From the NCBI GenBank assembly GCA_001509375.1, contig LGFT01000025.1:1-48638 (forward strand): 48,638 bases of DNA. Direction: 5' to 3'. This stretch comes from Methanothrix harundinacea. Lineage in GTDB: Archaea; Halobacteriota; Methanosarcinia; Methanotrichales; Methanotrichaceae. The notes below the pieces were generated by a model. That model was not told the DNA's origin, made no database searches, and saw only the letters and a program-made list of their open reading frames with translations. Numbering within the stretch: the stretch's first letter is position 1; each line of letters begins with the position of its first letter. Made by a program: the position numbers and the translations under genes. This document shows positions 25,007 through 48,584 of the stretch, piece by piece.

Positions 25007-25054
25007 GGAGATATTCAACAGAAATTTACTCAAATAAAGTTGTGTGGTGTTGAA

Positions 25055-26284: not shown

Positions 26285-26297
26285 GGAGGCGAAAACG

Positions 26298-27533: not shown

Positions 27534-27544
27534 AGGAGGTTAAC

Positions 27545-29559: not shown

Positions 29560-29582
29560 TCGAGGCGAGGATATCGTCCGTG

Positions 29583-30635: not shown

Positions 30636-30659
30636 GGAATCTGAGAAAAGGTGAGATCG

Positions 30660-31772
30660 ATGAGATCAAGATTTGAGCTAGGACTGGTCATAGGCTGCCT
30701 ATTCTTCGCCGCCTTCGTTGCGACTTGTGCCGCAGACGGCGGAGTGCCGGTCACCATCACCGACCAAGCAGGAAGAACCGTCACCGTCGTTCCCGACGAG
30801 ATCGAGAGGATCATTTCATTCGGGTCCCTCCCCTCGACGGCGGTGATCATCGCCATCGAGGGATCGGGCGAGAGGATAGTGGGAATGTCGGACATGGCCA
30901 TGCAGGCGATCGAGGACGGAATCATGGGCGAGATGTATCCAGAGCTTCTGGATGTCCAGAGCAATGGAAGCTTCACCCAGGGTCCCGCCGGCGTGAACAT
31001 TGAAGAGGTCCTGAGGTTAGACCCCGACATCGTTTTCACAAAAAATGACGAAGATAAGCTAAAGATCTTCGACGAGTTGGGAATCCCTGCCGTGGTCGTG
31101 AGCCACGGCAGGGATTTGGATACATATTGTACCATGATGACCAACATCGGCTGCGTTTTGGGGAAGGACGACCGAGCCGCCAGGTTCGTCGAATACTACC
31201 AGGAGATGTTCGAAGAGCTGACGGCCATAACCGAGGACCTGCCAGATGAAGAGAGGACTTCGGTCATGTTCATACCCTTTGCAAAATCCTTGAGGACTGT
31301 GCCCGCAACCGTCCTCCCTGCCGTGTACATTGATATCGCTGGAGGGTTCATGAGCACCAAAGAGCTGACCCGAGGTGGCAATCAGGCGGTAGCGATGGAG
31401 CAGGTCATAAAGTGGAACCCCGACGTTGTCCTTCTGGGCAACTTCGAGTACGTCAACCCCCAGGACCTCTACGACAACAACCTGGAGGGGCAGGATTGGA
31501 CCTCAGTTAAGGCCGCTCAGAACAAGCGGGTTTACCTGGAACCCCTGGGCGTTTACAGGTGGGGTCCACCCAACCACGAGGCGCCGTTGCAGATAATGTG
31601 GCTCGGAGAGCTTCTCCACCCCGATCTGTTTGACTACGATCTCCGCCAGGAGATGAAGGACTTTTACAAGGAGATGTACGACTACGACCTGAGCGAGGAG
31701 CAGATCGACGACATCCTGCACTGCGACGTAAACTCGGTGAGCGCGGGATATGAGGCCTTCTGCAGAGCTTGA
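30660..31772 (+). CDS. FecB/BtuF-type substrate-binding protein of an ABC importer, copy A
   Basis: A 370-residue exported binding protein without a dockerin part. The signal peptide (LGLVIGCLFFAAFVATCAADG) ends in a Cys-containing stretch. The domain opens VTITDQAGRTVTVVPDEIERIISFG and has LRLDPDIVFT, YIDIAGGFMSTKEL, QVIKWNPDVVLLG and QNKRVYL. The C-terminal ~45 residues (DLRQEMKDFYKEMYDYDLSE and on, with two Cys) are nearly identical to copy B. It should deliver a metal chelate, corrinoid or similar ligand to the FecCD permease downstream. ATG 30660 lies after AAAGGTGA; GTG 30651 is an alternative. Confidence 0.8.
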   Translation: MRSRFELGLVIGCLFFAAFVATCAADGGVPVTITDQAGRTVTVVPDEIERIISFGSLPSTAVIIAIEGSGERIVGMSDMAMQAIEDGIMGEMYPELLDVQSNGSFTQGPAGVNIEEVLRLDPDIVFTKNDEDKLKIFDELGIPAVVVSHGRDLDTYCTMMTNIGCVLGKDDRAARFVEYYQEMFEELTAITEDLPDEERTSVMFIPFAKSLRTVPATVLPAVYIDIAGGFMSTKELTRGGNQAVAMEQVIKWNPDVVLLGNFEYVNPQDLYDNNLEGQDWTSVKAAQNKRVYLEPLGVYRWGPPNHEAPLQIMWLGELLHPDLFDYDLRQEMKDFYKEMYDYDLSEEQIDDILHCDVNSVSAGYEAFCRA

Positions 31773-31852
31773 TGTCGGATACGAGGAAGGAAGTTGCAAT
31801 CAACTTCCAACCTTTTAAATTTAGTTGTTATTGCCTTAAAAAGGTGAAATTG

Positions 31853-32938
31853 ATGAGATCGAGATTTAAGTTTGGCCTGGTCGTAGGTTGCCTCCTCTTC
31901 GCCGCCGTTGTCGCCACCTGTGTGGCAGACGGAGGAGAGCCGGTCACCATCGTCGACCAGATGGGACGAAACGTCACCGTCGTTCCGGACGAGATCGAGA
32001 GGATCGTGATATTCGCCCCACCACCGGCAGCGATGATCTATGCTATCGAGGGGACGGGCGAGCGGATAAAGGGAATGAACCCCCTATCATTGCAGGCGAT
32101 CGAGGACGGAATATTGGGTGAGATGGCGCCAGAACTCTTGGGTGCCAACACAAGCCAGAGCATGGAAGAGATCCTGAAGATAGACCCGGACATAATTTTC
32201 ATGCCTGCACCGCCCCTGGGAACTGTAGAGGCGATACAGTTCGTAGAAAATTTTGGAGTTCCGGTCATGGCGATGAGCTGGAAAAATCAGTCCGATTATG
32301 AGACTCTGATGCTCAACGTTGGTCGGGTTTTGGGAAAGGACGATCGGGCCAATATGTTCGTCAACTACCACCGGGCAGCGCATGAAGATATATCGGCCAT
32401 AACCGAAGACCTGCCGGAAGAGGAGAGGCCCTCAGTCCTGTTCTTACCTTTTCCAAAGTCCTTGACTACTGTGCCCGGCACCATTGTCACCGCCGATTAT
32501 ATCGATATTGCGGGAGGAGTTATAACCACCAAGGAGCTGACCGCGGGGACCTCTCAGGCGGTTACGATGGAGCAGGTCATAAAGTGGAACCCCGATGTGA
32601 TCCTTCTGGGGAACTTCGAGTACGTCAGTCCTCAGGACCTCTACGACAACAACCTGGATGGGCAGGATTGGAGCTCCGTCAAGGCGGTGCAGAACAGACA
32701 GGTCTACCTGGTGCCCCTGGGCGTTTACAGGTGGGGTCCACCAAACCACGAGTCTCCTTTGATGTGGATGTGGCTGGGCGAGATCCTCCACCCCGATCTG
32801 TTTGACTACGACCTGCGCCAGGAGATGAAGGACTTTTACAAGGAGATGTACGACTACGACCTGAGCGAGGAGCAGATCGACGATATCTTGCACTGCGACG
32901 TAAACTCGGTGAGCGCGGGATACGAGGCCTTCTGTTGA
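31853..32938 (+). CDS. FecB/BtuF-type substrate-binding protein of an ABC importer, copy B
   Basis: A 361-residue tandem paralog of copy A with the same signal peptide type, VTIVDQMGRNVTVVPDEIERI, LKIDPDIIFM, YIDIAGGVITTKEL and the same C-terminal extension. The N-lobe differs clearly (for example APPPAAMIYAIEG and MSWKNQSDYETLMLN), so the two copies probably recognise different forms of a ligand or have divided roles. ATG 31853 follows AAGGTGAA; the upstream-extended frame from 31769 overlaps copy A and is rejected. It is followed by a hairpin and a new promoter for the permease. Confidence 0.8.
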   Translation: MRSRFKFGLVVGCLLFAAVVATCVADGGEPVTIVDQMGRNVTVVPDEIERIVIFAPPPAAMIYAIEGTGERIKGMNPLSLQAIEDGILGEMAPELLGANTSQSMEEILKIDPDIIFMPAPPLGTVEAIQFVENFGVPVMAMSWKNQSDYETLMLNVGRVLGKDDRANMFVNYHRAAHEDISAITEDLPEEERPSVLFLPFPKSLTTVPGTIVTADYIDIAGGVITTKELTAGTSQAVTMEQVIKWNPDVILLGNFEYVSPQDLYDNNLDGQDWSSVKAVQNRQVYLVPLGVYRWGPPNHESPLMWMWLGEILHPDLFDYDLRQEMKDFYKEMYDYDLSEEQIDDILHCDVNSVSAGYEAFC

Positions 32939-32954
32939 GGGATGCGCCTTTCGA

Positions 32955-32976
32955 TGGTGGGGTTTTCACCCCACCA
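32955..32976 (+). terminator. hairpin between binding protein and permease genes
   Basis: A perfect 8-bp stem TGGTGGGG (32955-32962) / CCCCACCA (32969-32976) with a TTTTCA loop lies 17 bases after the binding-protein stop. It has no T-run, so it may be an attenuating or mRNA-protecting hairpin rather than a full terminator. A TATA-like TATTTATCTAAA follows at about 32979, 40 bases before the permease start. Confidence 0.5.
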
Positions 32977-33018
32977 AATATTTATCTAAAACTATAGTTA
33001 AAGTGATTTGAGGAGTTT

Positions 33019-34086
33019 ATGTACGAGAGCTCGACGAAGAAGTCAAGGATATCGATATCATCATTCTGCAACAAAAAAAACTTATTGGCGGCAGTATTGA
33101 TCATATCGCCCCCTTTGGCGTTCTTCTTTTCGCTAACCATTGGCCGATACGACTACATACCATTTAGGACGGTCGTCGACGTAGTACTATCTCGATACTT
33201 CGATATAGAGCCCTACTGGGATCCGATATACGATATCGTGGTCTTCAGGCTGAGGATACCGAGGGCGTTGTTGGCCATGTTGATCGGAGCGGGCCTTTCG
33301 GTCTCCGGCGCATCCTTCCAGGGGATCTTCAGAAATCCGCTCGTCAGCCCCCACATCCTCGGCGTGGCCACGGGATCCGCCTTCGGTGGCCTCTTTGCCA
33401 TGATCCTGTTCAACCATCCGTCCCTCGATCTCCTCTTCGCCATCATATTTGGATTTGTGGCCCTCATTCTCGCGCACCTCATGAGCAGAGTTCGAGGGGG
33501 AACCCCCATACTAATGTTGGTCCTGGCAGGCGTGGTGGTGAACGCCTTCTTCTCGGCCATGATCGCCCTGGTGACCTATACCGCAGATCCGCTCTACGAG
33601 CTTCCTGAAGTGGTCTTCTGGCTCATGGGGAGCCTTGCGGATGCCAGCTACGAAAAGCTGGACGTAGTGACTGTGCCGATCCTGGTTTGCATCTTTGTTC
33701 TGTACCTTTTAAGGTGGAGGATCAACCTTCTGTCCTTGGGTGATGAAGACGCTCAGGCCTTGGGCGTTCGGGTGGAGCGGGTAAAATGGCTCATCATAAC
33801 CTGCGTTACCGTTATCGTAGCTCTCTGCGTCTCTGTGAGCGGCGTGATCGGATGGGTGGGGCTTGCCTTGCCTCACATAGCCAGGATGTTGGTGGGGCCG
33901 GATCACAGGGTTCTGATACCCACCTCGATCTCTCTTGGCGCAGTCTACCTCGTCATCATGGACGATATCGCAAGAACTTTGACCCCGGCAGAGATCCCTC
34001 TGGGCATATTGACGGCGATAATAGGAGCCATAATATTTGGATATCTCTTGAAGAGGACGCAAGGGAGGGGTTGGGTTGACAGTTGA
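33019..34086 (+). CDS. FecCD/BtuC-type ABC transporter permease (importer 1)
   Basis: A 355-residue integral membrane protein with about ten hydrophobic helices. The family motifs are FRLRIPRALLAMLIGAGLSVSGASFQGIFRNPLVSPHILGVATG near the N-terminal third, GVVVNAFFSAMIAL, and GVIGWVGLALPHIARMLVGPDHR before the last helices. This is the permease type for Fe-siderophores, heme and vitamin B12. It follows two binding proteins and overlaps the ATPase gene by 11 bases, giving a complete importer (two binding proteins, permease, ATPase). A TATA-like element lies about 40 bases upstream. Confidence 0.87.
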   Translation: MYESSTKKSRISISSFCNKKNLLAAVLIISPPLAFFFSLTIGRYDYIPFRTVVDVVLSRYFDIEPYWDPIYDIVVFRLRIPRALLAMLIGAGLSVSGASFQGIFRNPLVSPHILGVATGSAFGGLFAMILFNHPSLDLLFAIIFGFVALILAHLMSRVRGGTPILMLVLAGVVVNAFFSAMIALVTYTADPLYELPEVVFWLMGSLADASYEKLDVVTVPILVCIFVLYLLRWRINLLSLGDEDAQALGVRVERVKWLIITCVTVIVALCVSVSGVIGWVGLALPHIARMLVGPDHRVLIPTSISLGAVYLVIMDDIARTLTPAEIPLGILTAIIGAIIFGYLLKRTQGRGWVDS

Positions 34087-34873
34087 GGTCGTGAATGGTC
34101 GGTTTGGGTATTCAAAAAGTTCAGCGGTCTTTGAGGATATAAATTTCAAGGTCGGACGGGGCGAGATCCTCTCCATATTGGGGCCCAACGGATGCGGGAA
34201 GACCACCCTGCTGAAGTGTCTTTTGGGCCTCTTGAACCTCACCGGAGGCGAGATCCGCATCGGAGGCCGTGAGCCAGGAGAGGCCAAAAGAGATAATGGC
34301 GGGTCTCACATCGGGTACGTACCTCAGAATCATCATACGGCCTTTCCCTACTCGGTGGTGGAGATGGTTCTCATGGGCAGGGCCCGCTTCATCGGCACCT
34401 TTTCTGCCCCCTCTGAAAGGGACGTCAAGATAGCCAAAGACTGCCTGGAGATGTTGAAGATCGGCCATTATGGGGAGAGGGACTTTCCAGAGCTTAGCGG
34501 CGGAGAAAAGCAGCTCGTACTGATCGCCAGAGCCCTAGCGTCCAACGCCGACGTGCTCCTCTTCGATGAGCCGACTTCAGCCCTCGATTACAAGAATCAG
34601 TACGCTATCTTGCAGGCGCTTCACAGTTTGACCCGAGAGAGGAGCCTTACCATAATCATGACCACTCACCATCCCGAGCACGCCCTTTACATCTCAGACA
34701 AGATGCTGCTGATGGGAGAGGGAAGAAGCATCTTCGGGGAAGTGAGCGAAGCCTTCACCGAGGAAAACCTCAAACAGGTATATGGGATGGAGATGAAGGT
34801 GGTCTCCATCCCCCATGGCGAAGATCAGCTTAAGAGCGTCGTCCCCATAATCGATCTGTGTAAAGAAAAATAA
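34076..34873 (+). CDS. ABC transporter ATPase of importer 1 (FepC/BtuD type)
   Basis: A 265-residue ATPase with Walker A GPNGCGKTTLL, Q-loop YVPQNHH, signature LSGGEKQLVLIARAL, Walker B DVLLFDEPTSALD and H-loop TTHHPEH. It powers the adjacent FecCD permease. The start is TTG 34076, behind AGGGAGGGG, inside the permease gene. GTG 34091 is the alternative but would cut the first strand. The C-terminal ~50 residues (YGMEMKVVSIPHGEDQLKS) are typical for this ATPase group. Confidence 0.87.
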   Translation: MTVEVVNGRFGYSKSSAVFEDINFKVGRGEILSILGPNGCGKTTLLKCLLGLLNLTGGEIRIGGREPGEAKRDNGGSHIGYVPQNHHTAFPYSVVEMVLMGRARFIGTFSAPSERDVKIAKDCLEMLKIGHYGERDFPELSGGEKQLVLIARALASNADVLLFDEPTSALDYKNQYAILQALHSLTRERSLTIIMTTHHPEHALYISDKMLLMGEGRSIFGEVSEAFTEENLKQVYGMEMKVVSIPHGEDQLKSVVPIIDLCKEK

Positions 34874-34933
34874 GGCAGGAATGATAAAAATAGTTTCGAG
34901 GGAATTCGAGAGGGATACCTCCGTTCCGACCGA

Positions 34934-35525: not shown

Positions 35526-35546
35526 CCAACCAAAACCTATTTAAAT
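35526..35546 (+). promoter_or_regulatory. promoter of the second dockerin-binding-protein run
   Basis: CCAACCAAAACCTATTTAAAT contains AACCAAAAC followed by TATTTAAAT (TATA, 35538-35546). AACCAAAACxTATTTAA is the same element found before RNA units 1, 2 and 4. The predicted start near 35568 lies after the GTG at 35558, which rules that codon out as the gene start. Confidence 0.6.
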
Positions 35547-35593
35547 ACCCTAATCAAGTGGACTTTAAACGAGTCAAATTATGTGGTGTTAGT

Positions 35594-36540
35594 TTGGATC
35601 TTAAACGAGGCCATATCCCATTAATCGCGTTGTGCTTGTCGCTGGTCGTCATGCCTGCTGTTGCAGATGGCGACTCATTTTCCGAGGCGTACAAAGACAC
35701 GCTCACGGTTTACGGAAACGCCAACTTAGATGACATCATCGACGAAGATGATGTAGAATACGTTCAAGGGATAATCGACGGAACTGAAGAAGAAACCCAG
35801 TTTGCAGATGCAGATTACGATGGCCAGATCGATGAAAGTGACATCGCTCAAATCGAACTGATCATAGCCGGAGAAGAGGATTATCTCGTCATCCTGGACA
35901 TGGACAATCGTACTGTGACCGTGGTTCTGCAGATAATCTTTGGGTTGTCGATATGCTCAGGGTTACAGGAGCCACCACGGGAAATGATGAACGAGCAAAG
36001 GATTTGATCGCCTTCACCAAGGATAAGGTCGATGAGATCGCAGAAATCACTTCAGAAATCCCAGACGAAGATAAGCCCGTCGTTTACTGTTGTGGATGCG
36101 GTTCAGGAGGTGGACCGTCAATTTGCAGGTATTGTGGCAGTGGTTCTGACATAGAATTTGCAGGTGGCTTAAACGTCATAGACTCCACCGGCAATTCTCA
36201 GGTTTCAAAGGAACAGATCATCGAATGGAACCCCGATATAATCCTAGTCCATATGGGAAGCCCCGAGAAGATCGGAGAGGTACTTTCAGATCCCGTTTTA
36301 CAAAGTGTAAACGCCGTAAAGAACGAACGGGTTTACTCTACCACGGTGGGCCACCAGGGTCGTGGAACACTGGGACAACACCTAATCCAGGTTTGTTATC
36401 TTGCAAAGCTCTTCCACCCGGATTTGTTCGAGGATCTGGACGTGGAAGAAGAGGGCAACGAGATTATGGAATACCTCTATGGCGTGGACGGAATTTACAC
36501 GGACCTGGCAGAAGAATATCACTTCTATAAGTGGGACTAA
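35594..36540 (+). pseudogene. dockerin-like / substrate-binding protein, copy 4, N-lobe deleted and frameshifted
   Basis: The first half has signal peptide (LIALCLSLVVMPAVADG) and both Ca loops (GNANLDDIIDEDDVEYV, ADADYDGQIDESDIAQI) and reaches the TVTV strand at about 35922. It then jumps in another frame to a segment equivalent to D-L-W-V-V-D-M-L-R, and the C-lobe is open from there to 36540. About 300 bases of the N-lobe are missing. The C-lobe loop is the richest in Cys of all copies (YCCGCGSGGGPSICRYCGSG). The ORF from GTG 35558 ends at 36007, so only the dockerin part could be exported. TTG 35594 is equivalent to GTG 25055 of copy 1. The copy is probably a pseudogene. Confidence 0.7.
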
Positions 36541-36554
36541 AGGAGTTGAACACG

Positions 36555-37796
36555 ATGCGTGAAATACTCTCGGGCATATTGGTTTCGTTTGCGTTATGCT
36601 TGTCGCTGGTCGTTATGCCCGCTGAGGCGGCAGGTTACACCTCATCTGCCTGGGCGTACGATGATACGCTTACAGTTTACGGAAATGCCAACTTGGACGA
36701 TGTCATAGATGAAACTGACATAGAATACGTTCGAGGGATCATCGACGGAACAAAAGATGAGACTCAGTTTGCAGATGCCAACTACGATGGCCAGATCGGC
36801 GAAGACGACATCGCTCAAATCGAACGGATCATAGCTGGTGAGGAGGATTACCTCGTCATCCTGGACATGGCCAATCGTATCGTGACCGTACCAATGCCAG
36901 TAGAGAGAATTGTATTAGCAGGTGGTGTTGACTCAATACGAACGCTGGTAATGCTTGGTGCCGAAGACAAAATCGTTGGATGTGGTTACCCGTCTCGTTG
37001 GGATCCAATATGGTATGCTGCACCCGAGCTGGAAGATCTTCCAGATACCAGTGGTGGGGGAAACAGCTTCAACGTTGAATTGGCAGTATCGTTAGAACCA
37101 GACGTCATATTTGTATGGACTTGGGATAATAGATACAATGCTGATGAGATTCAGGAGAAGTCCCAGGTTCCCACCATAGCTGTTTGCGGTTATCAAGACA
37201 GTCTATGGGTTGCCGACATGTTCAGAATTATAGGGGCCGTCACAGGAAATGATGAGAAGGCGAGGGATCTGATAACCTATACCAAGGAAAAGGTCGATGA
37301 GATAAAAAAAATTACCTCGGACATTCCTGATGAGGACAAGCCAGTCGTTTACTGTACTGCAGGTAGCGGAGAAATTACCAGCTGTTGTGGCGCTCTTTCT
37401 TGTATAGAATTCGCAGGTGGTTTAAACGCCGTAGAGTTTACTGGTAGTAGTTTTCAAATTTCAAAAGAACAGATCATCAAATGGAGCCCCGATGTAATCC
37501 TCATCCTTTTTGGAAGCCGCGAAATGATTAGTGAGGTGCTTTCAGATCCAGTTCTGCAAAATGTAAACGCTGTAAAGAACAGAAGGGTTTACTCGATCCG
37601 GATCGGCTTAAGCGGATGGGGAGCATTGGGAGCACAGCTATCCTCGTTGAATTATCTTGCAAAGCTCTTCCATCCGGACAAGTTCGAGAATCTAGACGTG
37701 GAAGAAGAGGGCAACGAGATTATGAAACACCTCTATGGCGTGGACGGATTGTACACCGAGATGGCCGAAGAATATAATTTCTACAGGTGGGATTGA
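36555..37796 (+). CDS. dockerin-like / substrate-binding protein, copy 5
   Basis: An intact 413-residue copy: signal peptide (ILVSFALCLSLVVMPAEA), Ca loops GNANLDDVIDETDIEYV and ADANYDGQIGEDDIAQI, then the binding domain with LEPDVIFVWTW, IGAVTGNDEKARDL and KWSPDVILI. It is closest to copy 1, sharing DKIVGCGYPSRWDPIWYAAPELEDL with small changes. The cleft loop is YCTAGSGEITSCCGALSCIEFAGG with four Cys. ATG 36555 has AAAGGAG upstream and lies 14 bases after the stop of copy 4. The next copy begins 13 bases after this stop. Confidence 0.8.
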   Translation: MREILSGILVSFALCLSLVVMPAEAAGYTSSAWAYDDTLTVYGNANLDDVIDETDIEYVRGIIDGTKDETQFADANYDGQIGEDDIAQIERIIAGEEDYLVILDMANRIVTVPMPVERIVLAGGVDSIRTLVMLGAEDKIVGCGYPSRWDPIWYAAPELEDLPDTSGGGNSFNVELAVSLEPDVIFVWTWDNRYNADEIQEKSQVPTIAVCGYQDSLWVADMFRIIGAVTGNDEKARDLITYTKEKVDEIKKITSDIPDEDKPVVYCTAGSGEITSCCGALSCIEFAGGLNAVEFTGSSFQISKEQIIKWSPDVILILFGSREMISEVLSDPVLQNVNAVKNRRVYSIRIGLSGWGALGAQLSSLNYLAKLFHPDKFENLDVEEEGNEIMKHLYGVDGLYTEMAEEYNFYRWD

Positions 37797-37809
37797 GGTG
37801 GTTGACAAC

Positions 37810-38885
37810 GTGCGTGAAATACTCTCAAGCATATTGATTTCTTTTGCGTTATGCTTGTCGCTGGTCGTCATGCCTGCTGGTGCAGATGGTGACTTATTTA
37901 GTCAGGCGTACAAAGACACGCTCACAGTTTATGGGAATGCCAACTTGGACGAGTGAACAACCGTACTGTGACCGTGCCCATGCCAGTGGAAAGGATCGTA
38001 TCCTCATCTCGTTTAGACTCCACACGAACCCTGGTACAACTTGGCGCTCAAGACAAAATCGTCGGATGCAGCTATCCTGCACCCAGTCGGTCGTGGAGTC
38101 CGATAAGGTATGCGGCACCTGAGCTGGAAGATCTCCCAGATCCAGGTAGCTACAACGATATCAACGTCGAATTGATGGCATCGTTGGAGCCAGACGTAAT
38201 ATTTGTAGTGACTACAGTAAACGCCGATGAGATTCAAGAAAAAACCCAGGTTCCGACCATAGCCCTTACTTCCGCGGGTGATTTCTGGGTAGTCGATATG
38301 CTCAGGATTATAGGAGCCGTCACAGGAAACGATGAAAAGGCGAGAGATCTGATAGCCTATTCCAAGGAGAAGGTCGATGAGATTGCGAAGATAACATCAG
38401 AAATCCCCGCCGAAGATAAGCCCGTCGTCTACTGTTGTGGTGGAGGATGGGCCAGCGGGGACATCATTTGCAAGTGTGATGGTAAGCAGCCTTTGATAGA
38501 ATGGGCTGGTGGTTTAAACGCTGCAGAGTCTACGAGTAGTATTGTGGTTTCAAAGGAGCAGGTCATCAAATGGAACCCGGATGTAATCCTAGTCCACGCG
38601 GGAAACTCAGCGGATATTGAAACGATACTTTCAGATCCCGCTTTACAAACTATAAACGCTGTAAAGAACGGAAGGGTTTACTTTATCCAAATCGCTTCCA
38701 GCGGTGCTGGTGTATTGGGAGCACAACTAGCCGAGGTAGGTTATCTTGCAAAGCTCTTCTACCCGGATAAGTTCGAGGATCTAGACGTGGAAAAAAGGGG
38801 CAACGAGATTAATGAACACCTTTACGGCGTGGACGGGCTTTACACAATCCTGGCCGAAGCACGTGGCTTTTACAGATGGGATTGA
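37810..38885 (+). pseudogene. dockerin-like / substrate-binding protein, copy 6, dockerin deleted and frameshifted
   Basis: Starts with GTG 37810 (GAGGTGG upstream), signal peptide (LISFALCLSLVVMPAGADG) and the beginning of the first Ca loop (GNANLDE), then stops at 37956. A deletion of roughly 150 bases has removed the rest of both Ca loops. The complete binding domain (NNRTVTVPMPVERIV onward) is open in another frame from GTG 37953 to 38885. Stop and new start overlap as GTGA, so re-initiation could make a cytoplasmic binding domain without a signal. The cleft loop is YCCGGGWASGDIICKCDGKQ (four Cys). The copy is probably a pseudogene; the junction should be checked for assembly error. Confidence 0.7.
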
Positions 38886-38898
38886 GGGGGTTTAAAAG

Positions 38899-40140
38899 AT
38901 GCGTGAAATATTATTAATTTCTTTTGCGTTATTCTTGTCGCTGGTCGTTATGCCAGCTAGTGCAGATGGAGACTCATTTGCCCAAGCATACGAAGATACG
39001 CTTACAGTTTACGGAAATGCCAATTCAGACGACATCATAGACGAAGATGACATAGAGTATGTTCGGGGGATCATCGACGGAACCGACGAGGAAACACAGT
39101 TTGCTGATGCCAACTACGATGGTCAGATCGATGAGGGAGACATTGCTCAAATCGAGCTGATCATAGCAGGAGAGGAGGAGGAACTCACCATCTTAGACAT
39201 GGCCAACCGTACTGTGACCGTAACAATGCCAGTAGAGAAAATTATACCCGCTGCTGGCTATGATGCCACACGAACGCTGCTCCAGCTTGGTGCCAAAGAC
39301 AAAATCGTTGGATGTGACTACCCGCCTAGTTGGTCCGTAATATGGTATGCTGCCCCCGAGTTGGAAGATCTCCCAAATCCCGGGGGTGCTAAAACAAAAA
39401 GCTTCAACGTTGAAGAAGCGGTGTCATTAGAGCCAGATGTCATATTTGTATGGCCTACGTCCAACGCCGATAAGATTCAAGAGAGGTCTCACGTTCCCAC
39501 CGTAGCCGTTACTTCTGCAGGCGATCTCTGGGTCGTCGATATGCTCAGGATTATTGGAGCCGTCACAGGAAAGGACGAGAAGGCAAGGGAGCTGATCAGC
39601 TACACCAAGGAAAATGTTGACGAGATTGCAAAAGTCACATCAGAAATCCCCGACGAAGATAAGCCAGTCGTTTACTGTTGTGGAAGTGGTGCAAACCTTG
39701 AAGGGGTGTCACTCATTTGCAGGTGTCTTAGCAGTGTGGCTTCTGAAATAGAATGGGCAGGTGGTTTAAACGTCATGGAGTCCACTGGTGATACTATTCA
39801 GGTTTCAAAGGAGCAGATTATCAAATGGAATCCTGATGTTATCCTCATCCATTTTGGATACCCCGAGAAGATCGAAGAGGTGCTTTCCGATCCCGATCTA
39901 CAAAATGTAAACGCTGTAAAGAACGCAAGGGTTTACTCTACTAGGGTCGGCTACTGCAAAGGAGGTGCATTGGGACAACGTCTAGTCCAAGTACGTTATT
40001 TTGCAAAGCTTTTCCACCCGGATAAGTTCGAGGATCTGGACATGGAAGAGGTGGGCAACGAGATTATGAAATATCTCTATGGCGTGGACGGAATTTACAC
40101 AGACTTCGCCGAAGAAAATAATCTCTATCGATGGGATTGA
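38899..40140 (+). CDS. dockerin-like / substrate-binding protein, copy 7
   Basis: An intact 413-residue copy with a short signal peptide (ILLISFALFLSLVVMPASA), Ca loops GNANSDDIIDEDDIEYV and ADANYDGQIDEGDIAQI and a full binding domain (LEPDVIFVWPTSNAD, IGAVTGKDEKARELI, KWNPDVILIHFG). The cleft loop is long, YCCGSGANLEGVSLICRCLS, with four Cys. The segment after LEPDVIF and the ERII region also differ from the other copies. ATG 38899 follows GAGGGGG, 13 bases after copy 6. C-terminus as in the family. Confidence 0.8.
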   Translation: MREILLISFALFLSLVVMPASADGDSFAQAYEDTLTVYGNANSDDIIDEDDIEYVRGIIDGTDEETQFADANYDGQIDEGDIAQIELIIAGEEEELTILDMANRTVTVTMPVEKIIPAAGYDATRTLLQLGAKDKIVGCDYPPSWSVIWYAAPELEDLPNPGGAKTKSFNVEEAVSLEPDVIFVWPTSNADKIQERSHVPTVAVTSAGDLWVVDMLRIIGAVTGKDEKARELISYTKENVDEIAKVTSEIPDEDKPVVYCCGSGANLEGVSLICRCLSSVASEIEWAGGLNVMESTGDTIQVSKEQIIKWNPDVILIHFGYPEKIEEVLSDPDLQNVNAVKNARVYSTRVGYCKGGALGQRLVQVRYFAKLFHPDKFEDLDMEEVGNEIMKYLYGVDGIYTDFAEENNLYRWD

Positions 40141-40153
40141 GGAGGTAAAAACG

Positions 40154-41500: not shown

Positions 41501-42367
41501 ATGGCCGGAATAATAAATTGGAACGAGCTTCGAAAAATGGCAATGTCTGGCCTTCGTCATGGAAGGCGAGACGAAGATCCGATTAAGGCCTGGGACGAGA
41601 GGGCTAAAAAGTTCAACGAACGGGCAATGCGCCACAAGAAGCTGACCGAACTACAGATCGCCAAAATGCATCTGGATCCAGAATACTCGGTTCTGGACAT
41701 TGGCGCAGGCACCGGGAGGCTCTCAATTCCAATCGCCAAGAAGGTGAAGAAGGTAACCGCCATCGACCAATCAGGCGGGATGCTCGCCCTTTTAGAAGAG
41801 AACATGCAAAAAGAGGAGCTGGACAACATCACTTGCCTCCAAAAACGGTGGGAAGACGTCGTTATAGGCCGAGACGTCGAGCCTCACGACGTGGTAATAG
41901 CATCCCACTCACTTGGAATGCTCGATCTGCAAAAGGCTCTCGAGAAGATAGATGCCACTGCAAAAAGGTACGTCTACATTCTGGGATCGGCAGGCTTAGA
42001 CTCTTGGATGAACCGAGAAGATGATGACGCCAAATTCTGGAAAGATATCTTTGGCCAGAACGAACATCTTCATGGTTGGCATTGGGATTACATTCTGCTC
42101 TACAACATCCTGCACGACATGAAGATATACGCCAACGTGGAGATCGAGGATTCTAAATTTGAACATTGCTACGAAGATCTGGAAGATGCAGTTAAAAGCT
42201 GGTCTTTGATGCACAATATCCCCCCAGATAAAACGGATCTGCTAAAGGAACATCTCGTTAAAATCTTAAAAGAGAACGGAGAAGGAACGCTCTGTTACAG
42301 ACGCAAGTCCAAGAACGCGTTGATCTGGTGGCATAAAGGTGGGGAAACAAAGTCTGAATCGTGGTGA
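41501..42367 (+). CDS. SAM-dependent class I methyltransferase
   Basis: A 288-residue soluble Rossmann-fold methyltransferase. The SAM motif VLDIGAGTGRLSIPIA is at about residues 64-79, followed by VTAIDQSGGML (acidic ribose contact region) and a post-II segment HDVVIASHSLGML. The C-terminal half contains several aromatic and His residues (NEHLHGWHWDYILLYN), perhaps for substrate. It is the first gene of the seven-gene operon and overlaps the next gene by seven bases. It could modify the small-molecule ligand or cofactor handled by this operon; that is inference from position. ATG 41501 has GGGGA upstream, and AT-rich sequence 25 bases before it may be the promoter. Confidence 0.75.
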   Translation: MAGIINWNELRKMAMSGLRHGRRDEDPIKAWDERAKKFNERAMRHKKLTELQIAKMHLDPEYSVLDIGAGTGRLSIPIAKKVKKVTAIDQSGGMLALLEENMQKEELDNITCLQKRWEDVVIGRDVEPHDVVIASHSLGMLDLQKALEKIDATAKRYVYILGSAGLDSWMNREDDDAKFWKDIFGQNEHLHGWHWDYILLYNILHDMKIYANVEIEDSKFEHCYEDLEDAVKSWSLMHNIPPDKTDLLKEHLVKILKENGEGTLCYRRKSKNALIWWHKGGETKSESW

Positions 42368-43161
42368 TCGTTTTGGACTTGAACCCCACCTTAATTGCAG
42401 GAGCGCTTCTGGTGGCCTTGATCTTTTTTTTCTCAGTGAAGATCACCCGGCAATACGAACGAGCAGTCGTCTTCAGGTTCGGAAAGCTCCTCGGTGAGAG
42501 GGGTCCGGGACTTTTCTTCATCGTGCCCATCGCAGATCGGATCGTCAAGGTCGATCTCAGGGTGAGAGAGCTGGACGTTCCAAGGCAAACGGTGATTTCT
42601 CGCGACAACGTCAGCATCGACGTCGATGCTGTCATCTACTACAAGGTGACCGACTCGACGAGGGCGATCGTGGAGGTGGAGGACTACGGAGCAGCGACGG
42701 CGCTTCTCGCCCAGACGACCTTGAGGGACGTCCTCGGCCAAAACGAGCTCGACACCATCCTCTCCAACCGGGACGAGCTGAACACGGAGATTCAGGCGAT
42801 CCTGGACGCGATGACCGACCCCTGGGGGATCAGGGTGGTAACCGCCACCTTGAGGGACGTCTCCCTCCCTGAGAACATGCTCCGGGCCATCGCCAGGCAG
42901 GCGGAGGCGGAACGGGAGAAGAGAGCCCGGATCATCCTTGCCGAGGGCGAGTATCAGGCATCTCGACGGATGAACGATGCCGCCACCTTGTACGAGGAGA
43001 AGCCCTCCGCCTTGAAGCTTAGAGAGTTTCAGACCCTGACTGAGATCGCCAAGGAGAAGAATCTGATAGTGGTGTCCACCGGAGCTGAAAGCGCCAGAAC
43101 TCCGGGGGATATCTGTGCCACCGCCGGTTTGGCGAAGGCGGTCACTGAGAGGCGGGGATGA
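42361..43161 (+). CDS. SPFH/stomatin-like (slipin) membrane protein
   Basis: A 266-residue band 7 protein: one N-terminal membrane helix (LIAGALLVALIFFFSV), then the SPFH domain with YERAVVFRFGKLLGERGPGLFFIVP, VDLRVRELDVPRQTVISRDNVSIDVDAVIYYKV and LRDVLGQNELDTIL. A C-terminal helix (EREKRARIILAEGEYQAS) used for oligomer formation follows. Slipins scaffold membrane microdomains and can act with a membrane protease (NfeD), but no NfeD gene is present. GTG 42361 overlaps the methyltransferase stop; the 3' end overlaps the permease start by four bases. Its place inside a transporter/nitrogenase-like operon is unusual and suggests it organises the importer or the enzyme at the membrane. Confidence 0.85.
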   Translation: MVIVLDLNPTLIAGALLVALIFFFSVKITRQYERAVVFRFGKLLGERGPGLFFIVPIADRIVKVDLRVRELDVPRQTVISRDNVSIDVDAVIYYKVTDSTRAIVEVEDYGAATALLAQTTLRDVLGQNELDTILSNRDELNTEIQAILDAMTDPWGIRVVTATLRDVSLPENMLRAIARQAEAEREKRARIILAEGEYQASRRMNDAATLYEEKPSALKLREFQTLTEIAKEKNLIVVSTGAESARTPGDICATAGLAKAVTERRG

Positions 43162-44249
43162 CAAAGGTCGCCAGACGCCATTCGTCCCGCACCGGAAAGA
43201 AGTCGAATGTTCAGAGGGAGTTTGACAAATTTGTAGGAAGAAAAATATTGTTTATGTTCGCCCTCCTGGTCCTGGCCGCTATCCTGGTGGGGGTGAGCGT
43301 AACCTTCGGCCCGTTGGAGATCACCGTATTAGAGGTGTATAGGGCGATAATTCAGAGGATTTTATCCACGGACCTCGGCATGGACGAGCTTACAGAGCTC
43401 GTCATATGGAACATCAGGCTTCCCAGGATCATGTGGGGCCTCGCGGCAGGTTTCGGCCTGGGAGTTGCAGGATGTATCATGCAGGCTGTACTCAGAAATC
43501 CCCTGGCAAGCCCCTTCACGTTGGGTATATCGGCCGGCGCGAACTTCGGTGTCTCTCTTGCGATAATTCTGGATTTCGCCATCTTCGGCGGGATGTACGC
43601 AGTTATCGGAAACGCCTTCATCTTTGCCTTTTTGACCTCGATGATCATCATCGGCATCTCCGCCATTAAGGGGGGGACCGTCGAGATCCTGATCCTTGCC
43701 GGGATCGCATTGAACTACGTATTCCGCGCCGCAAGTGACCTTTTCAAGTACTTTGCGACCTATGAGCAGAAAGAGGCGACACAAGCGTTCGGTCAGGGTG
43801 ATCTTGGCACCTTCGGTTGGAGCGAGCTTTCTCTCGTCGCTTTGATCATCCTCGTCTGCATGATCCTGGTGGCACCAAAATTGAGGGACCTGAACATAAT
43901 GACCGCGGGCGATGAGACCGCCAAGAGCCTGGGGATAGATGCTGGAAATCTCAGGATGTTTGTGATGATGGTGGCCAGCTTTCTTGTAGCAAGCGTGGTC
44001 GCCTTCGTCGGGCCCATCGGATTTGTGGGGCTGGTGGGGCCCCACATGTCCCGCATGATAATCGGGTCAGACCACCGGTTCCAGCTTCCTGCCTCTGGCC
44101 TTCTTGGGGCCATAATACTGGTATCCTCAGACATCCTCGGAATGAATATAATCCCGCCCATAATCATCCCTGTTGGAATCATGACCTCCATTCTGGGAGT
44201 GCCGTTTTTCTTCTATCTGATAATGACGAGGAGGAGGGAGTACTGGTAA
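43158..44249 (+). CDS. FecCD/BtuC-type ABC transporter permease (importer 2)
   Basis: A 363-residue permease with about ten membrane helices after a basic N-terminus. Motifs: NIRLPRIMWGLAAGFGLGVAGCIMQAVLRNPLASPFTLGISAGANFG, ILAGIALNYVFRA and VGPIGFVGLVGPHMSRMIIGSDHR. It belongs to the same family as the permease at 33019 but is clearly different in sequence. ATG 43158 overlaps the slipin stop (ATGA). The ATPase starts one base after this stop. There is no binding-protein gene in this operon; the dockerin-type proteins just upstream are the obvious candidates to feed it. Confidence 0.87.
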   Translation: MTKVARRHSSRTGKKSNVQREFDKFVGRKILFMFALLVLAAILVGVSVTFGPLEITVLEVYRAIIQRILSTDLGMDELTELVIWNIRLPRIMWGLAAGFGLGVAGCIMQAVLRNPLASPFTLGISAGANFGVSLAIILDFAIFGGMYAVIGNAFIFAFLTSMIIIGISAIKGGTVEILILAGIALNYVFRAASDLFKYFATYEQKEATQAFGQGDLGTFGWSELSLVALIILVCMILVAPKLRDLNIMTAGDETAKSLGIDAGNLRMFVMMVASFLVASVVAFVGPIGFVGLVGPHMSRMIIGSDHRFQLPASGLLGAIILVSSDILGMNIIPPIIIPVGIMTSILGVPFFFYLIMTRRREYW

Positions 44250-44250
44250 A

Positions 44251-45147
44251 ATGATGATTAAGCTAGCGATCAACGGCCTGACCTTCAGCTACAACAGCGT
44301 TCCAATTCTGGATGATATCTGCATGGAGGTCGCCCCGGCAAAGTTGCTCAGCGTCGTCGGGCCAAACGGAACCGGAAAATCTACTTTGCTCAAGTGCGTC
44401 GATCGGGTGCTGAAACCTCAGCAAGGAAACATCTTGCTTGATCGCAAGGATATCATGAAGATGGACCGGATGGAGATCGCAAAACAGGTCGGGTACGTCC
44501 AACAGAATGTAAAACGGAGCTTTCCAACTACGGTCTTCGATACGGTGATCATGGGACGGAGACCTCATCAAGGCTGGCAGACGAGGGATGAAGATCACGA
44601 GATCGTCTGGGAGATCCTCGAGCTTCTGGACATCGATCAGTTCGCGTTGAAGTACTTCAACGAGCTCAGCGGGGGCCAGCAACAGAGGGTGCTGATAGCA
44701 CGTGCTCTCGCACAGGAGGCGAGCGTTCTGCTATTGGACGAGCCCACCTCCAACCTGGACATCAAACGCCAGCTAGAGGTCATGGACATAATACAGGACC
44801 TTGTGAGAACTAAGAGGATCACCGCCATGGTGGCCATCCACGACCTCAACCTGGCGTCGAGATACTCGGATCGGATGATCATGATGAAAAATGGGAGGAT
44901 CATTGTGGCTGGAGATCCAAGGGATGTTTTGACCGCTGAGAACATAGAGGCGATTTATGGCGTCGAAGTTGACATAAGAACCCAATCTGATGCGCCTTAC
45001 GTCGTCCCTTTGAAACCGATTAAGACGAAGAAAGTCTGGCACCACGAGAACGATTTTATAGCACGAAGTAAGAAAAAGGTCTCATCCATCGGCAGAATTT
45101 CAGATAACCTTTCAGAGCGGTTTGGTCAGGTAAAAGTTCTGAAGTGA
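44251..45147 (+). CDS. ABC transporter ATPase of importer 2 (FepC/BtuD type)
   Basis: A 298-residue ATPase with Walker A GPNGTGKSTLL, Q-loop YVQQNVK, signature LSGGQQQRVLIARAL, Walker B VLLLDEPTSNLD and H-loop AIHDLNLASRY. The core ends at about residue 255; a basic tail of some 40 residues (KTKKVWHHENDFIARSKKK and on) is longer than usual and could contact other proteins of the operon. ATG 44251 is one base after the permease stop (an ATG follows at 44254). A 59-base gap leads to the nitrogenase-like genes. Confidence 0.87.
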   Translation: MMIKLAINGLTFSYNSVPILDDICMEVAPAKLLSVVGPNGTGKSTLLKCVDRVLKPQQGNILLDRKDIMKMDRMEIAKQVGYVQQNVKRSFPTTVFDTVIMGRRPHQGWQTRDEDHEIVWEILELLDIDQFALKYFNELSGGQQQRVLIARALAQEASVLLLDEPTSNLDIKRQLEVMDIIQDLVRTKRITAMVAIHDLNLASRYSDRMIMMKNGRIIVAGDPRDVLTAENIEAIYGVEVDIRTQSDAPYVVPLKPIKTKKVWHHENDFIARSKKKVSSIGRISDNLSERFGQVKVLK

Positions 45148-45206
45148 GTGGGTTGTCCAACGCCAGATTCGCGACAATACATACCGTTTAAGTTGGGGCG
45201 AAACGA

Positions 45207-46535
45207 ATGAAGTTAGATGACATATCCTTGGAGGGAAAATGCCTCCGATTGAGCGAAGTCGTCGAAGATGTGGCCCTGCCCAAAACCGCCGATGCGAAGT
45301 ACCCAGGGTCACATTGCGCTTTCAGAACGGTGGCTGGCATCCTACCTCTCATCAAAAACTCCTATGGTTTGCTTTTGGGCCCTGCTATCTGTCTTTACAA
45401 CGCCAAGCTGACCGTGAACATAAGGTCTCTGACCTCTGACCCCCGGCCAAACAACCTCCTCTTTCTTACATACTCCCAGGAAGATATAATATTCGGATTT
45501 CACAAGAAGGTCCGAGAGGCCATTTTGGAGGTGGATCGTAGATACCATCCAGAGGTGTTGTTCTTGGTCACCACGTGTCTGCAAGAGATCGTCGGTGAAG
45601 ATTTCGACGCTTCAATAGAAGAGATCCAAAGGGAGGTGAAGGCCAAGATGCTGGTGATCCATACCGACAACTTCACCTGTGAAGATGCCTCACCCGGCAT
45701 AGAGAACGTCTTCTTATCCTTGTCGGAGCTGATGGAGCCCCAGGAAGCGGAGGAGGGGTCTGTCAACCTGTTGGGTTTTTGGACGCCGAAAGCGAAGAAG
45801 ACGGAGCTTGTTCGGCTGCTGGGATCTGAGGATATAATGATCAAGAACGCCATACCCTCTTACTGTAGCCCAGAAGATCTGAGTCGTGCGCCTGGAGTTT
45901 CGCTTAACATAGCATTGGACCATTTTGCTCTGAAACTTGCCAAAAAGATGAAGGAGATGTTCGGCACAGAGTACATCTATTGCGAAAGACCCTATCATCC
46001 GGATTCTATCGAGCTATGGTACCAGAAGATCGCCAACGCCTTGGGCATCGATCTGGATTTGAAGGTCGCAGACCTTAAGAGAGAGACCGAAGAGCTGGTC
46101 ACTCAGGCGAAGGGCAGTTTATCCGGCAAGAGCTGTGTCCTCTTTGGCCAGCCCGGAAGGACCCTAGACATGGCTTTTCTCCTTTCCGAGCTGGGGATCG
46201 AGCTGAAGGCGATCATGCTTCACCGCCTTCTCTCCGACGATCACACAGATGCTCAAAAGCTTCTGGCCGAGGGAATCGATCCTCTCGTCTTCAGAGGGGA
46301 CAACGCCCTTCAAACAGAGAAACTGCTCTCGACGTTGAGGCCAGATATCTGCGTCGGGTGCAGAGATTATAGGGTTCTTGCCAGGCAGGGAATCGAGCCA
46401 TGTATGCTGATTCCATCGCACTTCAAGCTGGGATTTGAGGCGACTAATGAAATCTTGCGTCTCATGCATCGAGAGCCTGCAGGCTTTGGGGCTCTGAGAT
46501 ACAAAGAACGACTTTTGAACAGTGGAGCGGTCTAG
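45207..46535 (+). CDS. nitrogenase component-1-like protein, NifD/NifE-type subunit
   Basis: A 442-residue member of the NifD/NifE/CfbD/BchN superfamily. All three P-cluster-type cysteines of a NifD-like subunit are present: Cys37 (YPGSHCAF), Cys62 (LGPAICLYN) and Cys124 (VTTCLQEIVGED). The C-terminal half has the usual second and third Rossmann-like domains (VLFGQPGRTLDMAFLLSELGIE) and an unusual CVGCRDY motif. It does not look like NifD (no recognisable cofactor-ligand regions), nor like the 370-residue CfbD encoded at 4414. It should form the reductase core with the next gene product. A possible internal promoter (CGTTTAAG) lies in the 59-base gap upstream. Confidence 0.82.
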   Translation: MKLDDISLEGKCLRLSEVVEDVALPKTADAKYPGSHCAFRTVAGILPLIKNSYGLLLGPAICLYNAKLTVNIRSLTSDPRPNNLLFLTYSQEDIIFGFHKKVREAILEVDRRYHPEVLFLVTTCLQEIVGEDFDASIEEIQREVKAKMLVIHTDNFTCEDASPGIENVFLSLSELMEPQEAEEGSVNLLGFWTPKAKKTELVRLLGSEDIMIKNAIPSYCSPEDLSRAPGVSLNIALDHFALKLAKKMKEMFGTEYIYCERPYHPDSIELWYQKIANALGIDLDLKVADLKRETEELVTQAKGSLSGKSCVLFGQPGRTLDMAFLLSELGIELKAIMLHRLLSDDHTDAQKLLAEGIDPLVFRGDNALQTEKLLSTLRPDICVGCRDYRVLARQGIEPCMLIPSHFKLGFEATNEILRLMHREPAGFGALRYKERLLNSGAV

Positions 46536-46536
46536 A

Positions 46537-47808
46537 ATGGATCTGAAGTTGAATAGCTATCCTGCGCCTTCCGATTATTTTGGGGTTTTGTGGGGCCTTT
46601 CTGGCGTCGATGATCTTTTGGTTCTGGAACACGGGTCCACTGGAACCTGCAGCTACAACGTCGTCAATTACATGATAATGAACAAACAGTCCCCAAAAGG
46701 GAAGCTATTCTCCTGCGGGATGGACGAAGATGACGTGGTGATGGGGCGAGAAGACAAGTTGAAACGGGCGGTGGAAGAGCTTGACCAGACCTTTCACCCC
46801 AAAATCATCGCGTTGGTCGCAACAGGAGTGACCTCCGTAATCGGCCTGGACCTCGATGGCGTAATCGAGGAGATTCAGCCTCGCACTAACGCAAAGCTTC
46901 TCTCCTTTGCCAGTGGGGGCTTTGCGGGAGACTACACTTGGGGAATAAAAGAGGTCTTCCGCACTTTGGCGATGGAGGTGGCAGAAGAGTCAAAAGATCG
47001 AAAGCCGTTTTCGGTCAACGTTATCGGACCCGCGATCGACTCCTTCAACAACGTCTCAGATCTGGCCGAGCTGAGACGGTTGCTGAAGCTCTTGGGAGCC
47101 GAAGTCAACACTGTCTTCACCTGCCACACGAGCGTCGGCGGGATAGAGAGCATGGCTTCAGCCTCTCTGAACCTGGTCACGAGAGATGTGGGGCTGGAGG
47201 CTGCCCAGATCCTTGAAGACCGTTTCGGGATTCCTTACGTTTATGGCCTTCCTTTCGGGATAAAAGGAACGGTTGAGTGGTTGGAAGAGGTGGGTGAGAG
47301 GCTGGACTTATACCTGGAGATGGGGACGTTGGCCTCTGAGCTGGAACGATACGGATTTTCCATCTTGGAGCTTACAACCCCTCTCCAGAGATGTGATCAC
47401 CTGAGGGCGGTGATATCGTGTCCTTATGATTACGCCCTGGGGTTTGCAAAGCTCATGCGGGACGAATGGGGCATGAACCCGCCTCTTGTGGTGTTGCCAA
47501 CAGAGCCGAATGATCCCAAATTCGAAGACGAACTCGGCAGGTTTGGCGTTTCCGACGTTTTGATCGGGCCGGATACCTCGATTCTGGAAGAGGAGGTATT
47601 CAGGATCGATCCTCACGTAATCTTCGGAAACTCCTACGACCTTCACATCGCAAAAGAGGTTCCCATCAAGATGCATGCTGCATTTCCGGCCTTCGATCGT
47701 CTCTATCGGTTCGATGGTACGCCCTTTGTCGGGTTCAGGGGGCATGCTTACCTCACCCAGACCTTCGTCAACCTGCTCAACCAGAATCCAGAGGTGTTCA
47801 GAAATTGA
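46537..47808 (+). CDS. nitrogenase component-1-like protein, NifK/NifN-type subunit with reduced Cys set
   Basis: A 423-residue partner subunit. The N-terminal block EHGSTGTCSYN (Cys38) aligns with the NifK motif HGxxGC, and FSCGMDEDDVVMGRE with the SxSMTED-x-FGG region. The segment VATGVTSVIGLDL corresponds to the motif that carries the third cluster Cys, but here Gly97 replaces Cys; the first NifK Cys is missing as well. An extra Cys60 could compensate. ATG 46537 begins one base after the preceding stop with GGAG nine bases upstream; the frame continues to GTG 46522. The stop overlaps the NifH-like start by four bases. Confidence 0.8.
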   Translation: MDLKLNSYPAPSDYFGVLWGLSGVDDLLVLEHGSTGTCSYNVVNYMIMNKQSPKGKLFSCGMDEDDVVMGREDKLKRAVEELDQTFHPKIIALVATGVTSVIGLDLDGVIEEIQPRTNAKLLSFASGGFAGDYTWGIKEVFRTLAMEVAEESKDRKPFSVNVIGPAIDSFNNVSDLAELRRLLKLLGAEVNTVFTCHTSVGGIESMASASLNLVTRDVGLEAAQILEDRFGIPYVYGLPFGIKGTVEWLEEVGERLDLYLEMGTLASELERYGFSILELTTPLQRCDHLRAVISCPYDYALGFAKLMRDEWGMNPPLVVLPTEPNDPKFEDELGRFGVSDVLIGPDTSILEEEVFRIDPHVIFGNSYDLHIAKEVPIKMHAAFPAFDRLYRFDGTPFVGFRGHAYLTQTFVNLLNQNPEVFRN

Positions 47809-48584
47809 AGAAAATCGCTATCTATGGCAAGGGGGGAATTGGAAAGTCTACCACCACCGCCAACATATCCGCAGCCTTGGGAGAGATGAGGTACAAAGTG
47901 ATGCAGATCGGATGCGACCCGAAAGCCGATTCGACCAGCATGCTGATGAACGGAAGGCCGGTGCCGACCATTCTGGACACCTTGAGAAACAGCGACGTGG
48001 AGGCATCCCTCGCTGATATGGTCTTTCGGGGCTTTGGAGGCGTGCTCTGCGCAGAATGTGGCGGCCCAACTCCGGGGGTAGGATGTGCCGGCAGGGGTAT
48101 AATAGCCTCTTTTGAGAAGTTGGAGGCTTTGAATGCTTACGAAATCTATAAGCCCGATGTCGTCTTTTACGACGTTTTAGGAGATGTCGTATGCGGCGGA
48201 TTTGCGATGCCCCTTCGGAGAGGATACGCAAAAGAGGTCTACATCGTGACCTCAGGGGAGAAGATGTCCCTCTTCGCCGCCCGAAACATCGCCAAAGCGG
48301 TGGAGCAGTTCAAAGGCCGGGGCTACGCCCAGCTGAAAGGCATAATTCTCAACGCCCGGGGAGTTGCAAACGAGTCCGAGATGGTGAAGAGAGCGGCCCA
48401 AGAGATGGGCATCGAAGTTGTCGCCGAAATCCCTCGCGACCCCACGATTCAGGCTTGTGAAGACGAGAACATGACCGTGATCGAAGGGGCGCCAGATTCA
48501 GATTTAGCGAAGACGTACAGAAAACTGGCCCAGAAGATCATGAATACCCCTCTCCTGATTTCACCAAGATGGAATAGCCCTTAA
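47805..48584 (+). CDS. NifH/CfbC/BchL-like ATP-dependent reductase (iron protein)
   Basis: A 259-residue NifH-superfamily protein that should be the ATP-driven electron donor to the two subunits before it. It has the P-loop YGKGGIGKSTTTANI, switch I region GCDPKADST, both Fe4S4 ligands Cys94 (GVGCAGRGI) and Cys130 (LGDVVCGGFAMPLR) and the Arg after the first ligand. The start is TTG 47805, overlapping the previous stop (TTGA), with GAGGTG eight bases upstream; the protein begins exactly at the family's first strand. Gene order (component 1 pair, then H) differs from nifHDK. It could also serve CfbD at 4414, whose own reductase gene is not in the window, but the tight operon argues for a dedicated role. 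Confidence 0.85.
   Translation: MKKIAIYGKGGIGKSTTTANISAALGEMRYKVMQIGCDPKADSTSMLMNGRPVPTILDTLRNSDVEASLADMVFRGFGGVLCAECGGPTPGVGCAGRGIIASFEKLEALNAYEIYKPDVVFYDVLGDVVCGGFAMPLRRGYAKEVYIVTSGEKMSLFAARNIAKAVEQFKGRGYAQLKGIILNARGVANESEMVKRAAQEMGIEVVAEIPRDPTIQACEDENMTVIEGAPDSDLAKTYRKLAQKIMNTPLLISPRWNSP

Follow-up and report, generated by a model that had tools for sequence, protein, structure and literature searches.

The window analyzed here, a 48,638-nucleotide contig (LGFT01000025.1) assigned to Methanothrix harundinacea (assembly GCA_001509375.1), ends in a run of seven plus-strand genes (41,501-48,584) that joins a FecCD-type ATP-binding cassette (ABC) importer to a complete nitrogenase-like enzyme, consisting of a NifH-like reductase (H) and two component-1-like subunits (D and K). 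The three enzyme proteins form a clade of their own, and relatives in distant bacteria keep the same pairing with an importer, in some cases behind cobalamin riboswitches. We propose, from sequence comparison and analogy, that the run may import a metal-tetrapyrrole, most likely a corrinoid of the B12 type, and reduce it at the expense of ATP; we give this reading a probability of roughly 0.4. A wider proposal is more doubtful: that these proteins represent a nitrogenase-like family for corrinoid salvage, with which anaerobic archaea and bacteria would use ATP to reduce the metal center or ring of imported B12-type compounds, a CobN-type chelatase being its partner.

A preliminary description, made from the letters of the window and its open reading frames (ORFs), had named the seven genes as a methyltransferase, an SPFH protein, a permease, an ATPase, D, K, and H, and every ORF and domain was confirmed (Table 1). 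Oxidored_nitro scores for the two component-1-like subunits are 190 and 256 bits (cut-off 28.6), and Fer4_NifH scores 324 bits. The spacing between successive genes is -7, -4, +1, +59, -14, and -4 bp. Five of these gaps agree with the description of genes that overlap or lie 1-2 bases apart, but the largest, 59 bp, separates the importer ATPase from D. Although the permease and ATPase had been recognized, five substrate-binding protein (SBP) genes had been missed. These lie directly upstream of the methyltransferase as a tandem Peripla_BP_2 array (~35,564-41,389) with 13-14 bp between neighbors, and they make the importer complete; the run plausibly starts near 35.56 kb, about 6 kb earlier than the seven-gene stretch. 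Among NCBIfam models, the ATPase best matches a corrinoid ABC transporter ATPase (NF007082), below its cut-off, and the permease scores well as BtuC (191 bits, cut-off 461), with FhuB, FecC, and FepD also among its matches. The combination of SBP, FecCD permease, and ATPase resembles BtuCDF- and HmuUV-type importers, but all scores are under the cut-offs and the window importer shares one run with a nitrogenase-like enzyme.

We built trees of H, D, and K together with reference proteins from the Nif, Bch, Cfb, and Mar groups, Mar (methylthio-alkane reductase) being represented by a Mar-type pair from Chlorohelix and isethionate reductase (IsrHDK) being absent. Each protein falls in one clade outside Nif, dark-operative protochlorophyllide reductase (DPOR), CfbC/CfbD, and Mar, with ultrafast bootstrap/SH-aLRT support of 100/100 for D, 98/93 for K, and 100/99 for H. 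Members are Methanothrix metagenome-assembled genomes (MAGs), Methanospirillum stamsii, Clostridia SM3-B6.2, Phascolarctobacterium faecium, and other Negativicutes; Treponema saccharophilum groups with them in the H tree and, on a long branch, in the D tree. The final D/K tree was smaller, with long branches removed, and does not settle the branching order deep among group-IV clades. Few genomes carry close orthologs: a screen of 61 relatives and 393 genomes from the phylum found them only in a few Methanotrichaceae and in one genome matching M. stamsii, and no second copy beyond Clostridia SM3 turned up among the 46 genomes of its class that were surveyed. None of the three proteins reached an NCBIfam cut-off. 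The best model for H is CfbC (348 bits, cut-off 402), and its nifH score is 334 bits (cut-off 394); for K and D the best is BchB, far under the cut-off (140 of 490 bits for K). Given these cut-offs and trees, we rejected filing the enzyme as CfbCD, DPOR, Nif, or Mar. A separate clade holds single component-1-like proteins (~395 aa) with three cluster cysteines (L094, L095, L096, L098, L099, and L100), which belong to other families of archaea and in most cases have no K partner; the L099 copy lies ~2.4 kb from CfbD.

In alignments, three cysteines of D (Cys37, Cys62, and Cys124) coincide with the P/NB-cluster positions of NifD and BchN, and K has no cysteine at the NifK P-cluster positions; the six-cysteine P-cluster pattern, three from D and three from K, is thus lacking. 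K has Thr42 where BchB has Asp36 and NifK has Cys95, and Asp18 beside the position of NifK Cys70. H carries a P-loop and the cluster ligands Cys94 and Cys130 in invariant columns. Because the NifD cofactor ligands Cys275 and His442 are missing from D, as aligned with two NifD sequences, a cofactor resembling the iron-molybdenum cofactor (FeMoco) is unlikely in D-K, and a single DPOR-type cluster would be the simplest reading. AlphaFold models of K and D (mean predicted local distance difference test scores of 81 and 84) both match the nitrogenase superfamily; the top TM-scores of K, 0.80-0.84, are with BchB of DPOR, and D has no clear preference. DPOR reduces a tetrapyrrole, so that both the ligand pattern and the K fold argue for a tetrapyrrole substrate.

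The likeness to DPOR (BchL-BchN-BchB) extends to the H-D-K design, the three cysteines of the N-like subunit, and the lack of FeMoco, and the order bchN-bchB-bchH-bchL-bchM mixes a reductase of this type with a CobN-family chelatase and a methyltransferase, as loci related to the run do. However, the window proteins are separate from BchN/BchB in the tree, K has Thr42 in place of Asp36, and the window has an importer and no photosynthesis genes; assignment to DPOR or to chlorophyllide oxidoreductase (BchXYZ) was rejected, the curated cut-off being missed as well. CfbCD resembles the run in its kind of organism, in the tetrapyrrole chemistry proposed here, and in being the family to which H scores best, but CfbD is a single-subunit homodimer whereas the window has D plus K, and the genome encodes its own CfbC and CfbD elsewhere. 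Nitrogenase was rejected on its missed nifH cut-off, its separate clades, and the missing FeMoco ligands and K P-cluster cysteines.

Mar and Isr are characterized group-IV H-D-K enzymes, and isr genes occur near ABC transporter genes (PMC11423573), which raises the possibility that the run reduces a small imported sulfur compound. We regard this as most improbable: Mar-type proteins form another clade (Isr being outside the comparison) and keep Cys275, the importer is FecCD rather than SsuABC/TauABC, and the run has no MarB/IsrB-type radical S-adenosylmethionine (SAM) gene. Mar was rejected as an assignment on the same clade separation and missing radical SAM gene. The preliminary description had allowed for a metal complex, corrinoid, tetrapyrrole, or thio compound. 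The last is disfavored because a MarB/NifB-type radical SAM gene and FeMoco-type ligands are both missing, and a tetrapyrrole or corrinoid is favored by the riboswitches, CobN genes, and TonB receptors found at relatives.

The pairing of importer and enzyme is conserved well beyond the window. Clade genes almost always lie beside SBP-FecCD-ATPase genes, and the linkage is kept in Methanotrichaceae, Clostridia, Negativicutes, and a Treponema plasmid. Clostridia SM3 has the genes as SBP-FecCD-ATPase-D-K-H, and the Treponema plasmid as SBP-H-D-K-SBP-permease-ATPase; P. faecium and two other Negativicutes have H-SBP-FecCD-ATPase-D-K, plus TonB receptors, TonB-ExbBD, or an exporter, and in four larger Negativicutes the SBP/FecCD runs are divergent. 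In three Methanothrix copies no FecCD gene is visible nearby, with SBPs or a contig end in its place (two of the three contigs end close by). These copies, the 59-bp gap, and the abundance of SBP/FecCD genes in Methanotrichaceae (8-17 FecCD matches in each of three genomes) would fit a chance neighborhood, in which a siderophore/B12 importer operon happens to adjoin an unrelated nitrogenase-like operon. Such a coincidence is very unlikely, given that the genes are adjacent in four deep lineages, closely spaced, and under common riboswitches. The expected probability of a FecCD gene within 10 kb is 0.03-0.08 per genome, and 10 of 10 genomes have one; the product, ~1e-13 for those ten, ignores kinship, as the genomes are not phylogenetically independent. 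Because the proteins lie outside the Nif, Cfb, Bch, and Mar clades and the layout is conserved, neither of the two outcomes that the preliminary description had named as counting against it was found. We conclude that the run is real, conserved, and uncharacterized, that the substrate class first suggested is plausible, and that the original interpretation is partly supported.

One part that did not stand was the claim that such linkage lacks precedent. Group-IV genes beside ABC transporters, their function unproven, were reported in Methanocorpusculum and clostridia, together with the suggestion that metal transport is coupled to cofactor assembly (Dos Santos et al. 2012, PMC3464626). The group-IV NifEN-like proteins of Clostridium and Alkaliphilus in that study have the same three cysteines in the D/E-like subunit and none in the K/N-like one, with NifH and an ABC ATPase adjoining. 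The window adds SBPs, a methyltransferase, and SPFH; the likeness is to the published description. By extension of that general proposal, the importer could bring in a metal chelate (Co, Ni, or Fe, siderophore-like), and D-K, instead of acting on a tetrapyrrole, could release the metal or help to assemble a cofactor, either as a scaffold or as a reductase. FecCD/Peripla_BP_2 importers do carry siderophores as well, in keeping with the FhuB, FecC, and FepD matches, and in M. stamsii a DUF364/DUF4213 protein of putative heavy-metal-chelation function (L093, 7,830-8,576) lies between importer and SBP, upstream of D-K-H. A NifEN-like role is nevertheless distinctly unlikely, since NifB, NifX, and other cofactor-assembly genes are absent from the run, the FeMoco ligands are missing, and the CobN and B12 riboswitch links would be left unexplained.

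Those links point to corrinoids. An Rfam scan placed cobalamin riboswitches 80-120 nt upstream of three bacterial H-D-K operons, those of Clostridia SM3 and P. faecium, both in this clade, and a diverged second operon of P. faecium; the two genomes hold 6 and 15 such riboswitches in all. In the second P. faecium operon (L137, 388-9,809) the riboswitch precedes H-D-K-SBP-FecCD-CobN-radical SAM. Farther along, L137 encodes CbiZ and another SBP, as well as a TonB receptor that has a riboswitch of its own. Another Clostridia SM3 stretch (L138, 2,553-12,368) has a riboswitch followed by SBP-FecCD-ATPase-CobN-AAA (ChlI-like)-VWA (ChlD-like), that is, an importer and a complete class-I chelatase. In one genome (G036), two Methanothrix copies are closely followed downstream by CobN-like genes, and another copy (L107) shares its contig with such a gene. 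The same importer pairing in unrelated bacteria, with three operons behind B12 switches, points to an imported B12-like ring molecule as the probable compound that the enzyme reduces.

Before the riboswitch scan, a heme-first reading led: imported heme would be reduced by the nitrogenase-like enzyme for iron release in anaerobic iron acquisition, with a CobN/HmuS-type de-chelatase as partner. It drew on the heme-binding protein ChaN and TonB receptors in the P. faecium operon, the TonB receptors and/or TonB-ExbBD of three other Negativicute operons, the IsdE match of an SBP (2e-24, its best), receptors at L144 and L146 that score best as TonB-hemin, and the removal of iron from heme by HmuS, a CobN relative (PMC12583661). 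We now hold it to be unlikely. Every heme-type score is below its curated cut-off or a single case, B12-receptor scores are close behind or ahead, and one of the three riboswitch-led operons is the very one that contains ChaN. The heme-type signals, among them TonB receptors whose best match is often of heme type, still weigh against a corrinoid, as do several further points. No cobalamin riboswitch was detected by Rfam at four other Negativicute-type operons or the Treponema operon, nor in the archaeal window, as expected for archaea; CobN is tied to the window only via relatives; and the corrinoid reading reaches the archaeal window by analogy with the bacterial loci. A B12 riboswitch also reports regulation rather than substrate, and such switches control B12-independent alternative enzymes too. 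At the three other Negativicute operons with TonB genes, the lack of a riboswitch also fits the heme reading. Because heme-type scores occur among the Negativicute and Treponema operons that lack the riboswitch, the ligand may vary from lineage to lineage.

If the corrinoid reading holds, the SBPs would pass their ligand to the FecCD/ATPase importer, and we infer that the imported ligand would also be the substrate of the enzyme. At the cost of ATP, H would deliver low-potential electrons by way of its [4Fe-4S] cluster to a heterotetramer of D and K, in which each D-K pair would hold one Fe-S cluster, bound by the three D cysteines and no K cysteine, much as in DPOR. Without a FeMoco-type cofactor, D-K may act directly on the bound ring compound, reducing it or its metal at a DPOR-like site. 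The chemical step could take Co(II) to Co(I), reduce the ring, or loosen the metal, and a CobN-type chelatase, in relatives sometimes encoded in the same operon, could act before or after reduction.

Group-IV subclusters B, C, and E have no known substrate (PMC9391474), and the role of archaeal CobN/HmuS homologs has been described as unclear (PMC12583661). The clade ties both to a cobalamin-regulated uptake context, giving a concrete, testable substrate class, and P. faecium and M. stamsii are named strains for such work. CobN/HmuS/BtuS chelatase loci (PMC12583661, PMC6460266) likewise combine a CobN-like protein with tetrapyrrole-type uptake genes, as do relatives of the window system, but the window lacks CobN, and the relatives combine CobN with H-D-K, a combination mentioned in neither paper. 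In the open-licence literature, without preprints and most subscription papers, no paper turned up that gives these proteins a function or describes a link to the riboswitch or to CobN; the clade definition, both links, and the substrate hypothesis appear new within that literature, which does not establish priority. If the proposal is true, this enzyme design would serve tetrapyrrole salvage in addition to nitrogen fixation and the chemistry of chlorophyll, F430, and sulfur. The nitrogenase superfamily would gain a new reaction class, and archaeal CobN homologs would gain a role.

The methyltransferase and SPFH genes, listed in the preliminary description as part of the operon, are not universal in relatives. 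A related locus (L033) has an SPFH gene 91% identical to that of the window and no methyltransferase, and neither gene was found at the bacterial loci of the clade; we therefore rejected both as essential partners. The methyltransferase was also rejected as a BchM or CbiT equivalent, every score being far under the cut-off. Its relatives adjoin paralogous H-D-K modules in other archaea. Six Methanotrichaceae loci (L037, L038, L039, L041, L042, and L043) hold several additional H-D-K paralogs, which belong to another clade and likewise lie among SBP arrays, CobN, methyltransferase, or ABC-2 exporter genes. In L041 (14,455-18,001), methyltransferase-SPFH-FecCD-ATPase occur in the window order on the opposite strand, ~4 kb from a paralogous run of five SBPs and D-K-H.

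Table 1. Features of the window mentioned in the text.
Feature	Coordinates	Strand	Evidence
Three Peripla_BP_2 genes of an earlier SBP array (identity to SBP4: 65%, 64%, and 38%)	25040..28703	+	
Second importer: two SBPs, FecCD (33,019-34,086), ATPase (34,076-34,873)	30651..34873	+	
Possible archaeal promoter of the run, a TATA-like tatttaaata	35538..35547	+	read from sequence
SBP1, Peripla_BP_2 SBP gene broken by internal deletion/frame change	35564..36540	+	
SBP2, N-terminal dockerin-like repeat	36555..37796	+	Peripla_BP_2 2e-25; Dockerin_1 weak, 0.035
SBP3, broken copy, stop/frame change near N-terminus	37810..38885	+	
SBP4, SBP	38899..40140	+	Peripla_BP_2 2.5e-27
SBP5, SBP; 94% identical copy in the same place in relative L033	40154..41389	+	Peripla_BP_2 9e-24
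Class-I SAM-dependent methyltransferase	41501..42367	+	Methyltransf_25 1e-13
SPFH/Band 7 (slipin-like) membrane protein	42361..43161	+	Band_7 6e-43
FecCD/BtuC-type importer permease	43158..44249	+	FecCD 5e-82
Importer ATPase, ABC_tran domain	44251..45147	+	NF007082 1e-73, 249/537 bits
D subunit, component-1-like	45207..46535	+	Oxidored_nitro 7e-56
K subunit, component-1-like	46522..47808	+	Oxidored_nitro 8e-76
H subunit, NifH/CfbC-like ATP-dependent reductase	47805..48584	+	Fer4_NifH 9e-97

The host is a Methanotrichaceae-type MAG of 2.38 Mb, and its nearest relative with a name is 'Methanosarcinales archaeon Methan_01', also a MAG. Beyond the H gene the contig continues for 54 bp and then ends. 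CfbD is indeed encoded apart from the run, as first described, at 4,396-5,517 of the same contig, but the run is not simply a second nitrogenase-like system, since the genome also has CfbC, NifHDK with a truncated third component-1 ORF (contig C55), and a further group-IV component-1 pair (contig C61). On C55 (G000:C55, L009) the order is NifH-PII-PII-NifD-NifK, then a third component-1 frame of 251 aa cut by a TAA, before the contig ends. A CobN-family chelatase is encoded elsewhere in the genome. In the window, a Mur-ligase-like gene precedes CfbD (3,071-5,517), the two forming part of the F430 biosynthesis genes. Ten Peripla_BP_2 genes lie in two tandem arrays at 25,040-41,389, eight with long frames and two, in the downstream array, broken by deletions; expansion and assembly collapse of repeats are both possible origins. 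Several of these SBPs carry a dockerin-like N-terminal Ca-binding repeat (weak Dockerin_1 match).

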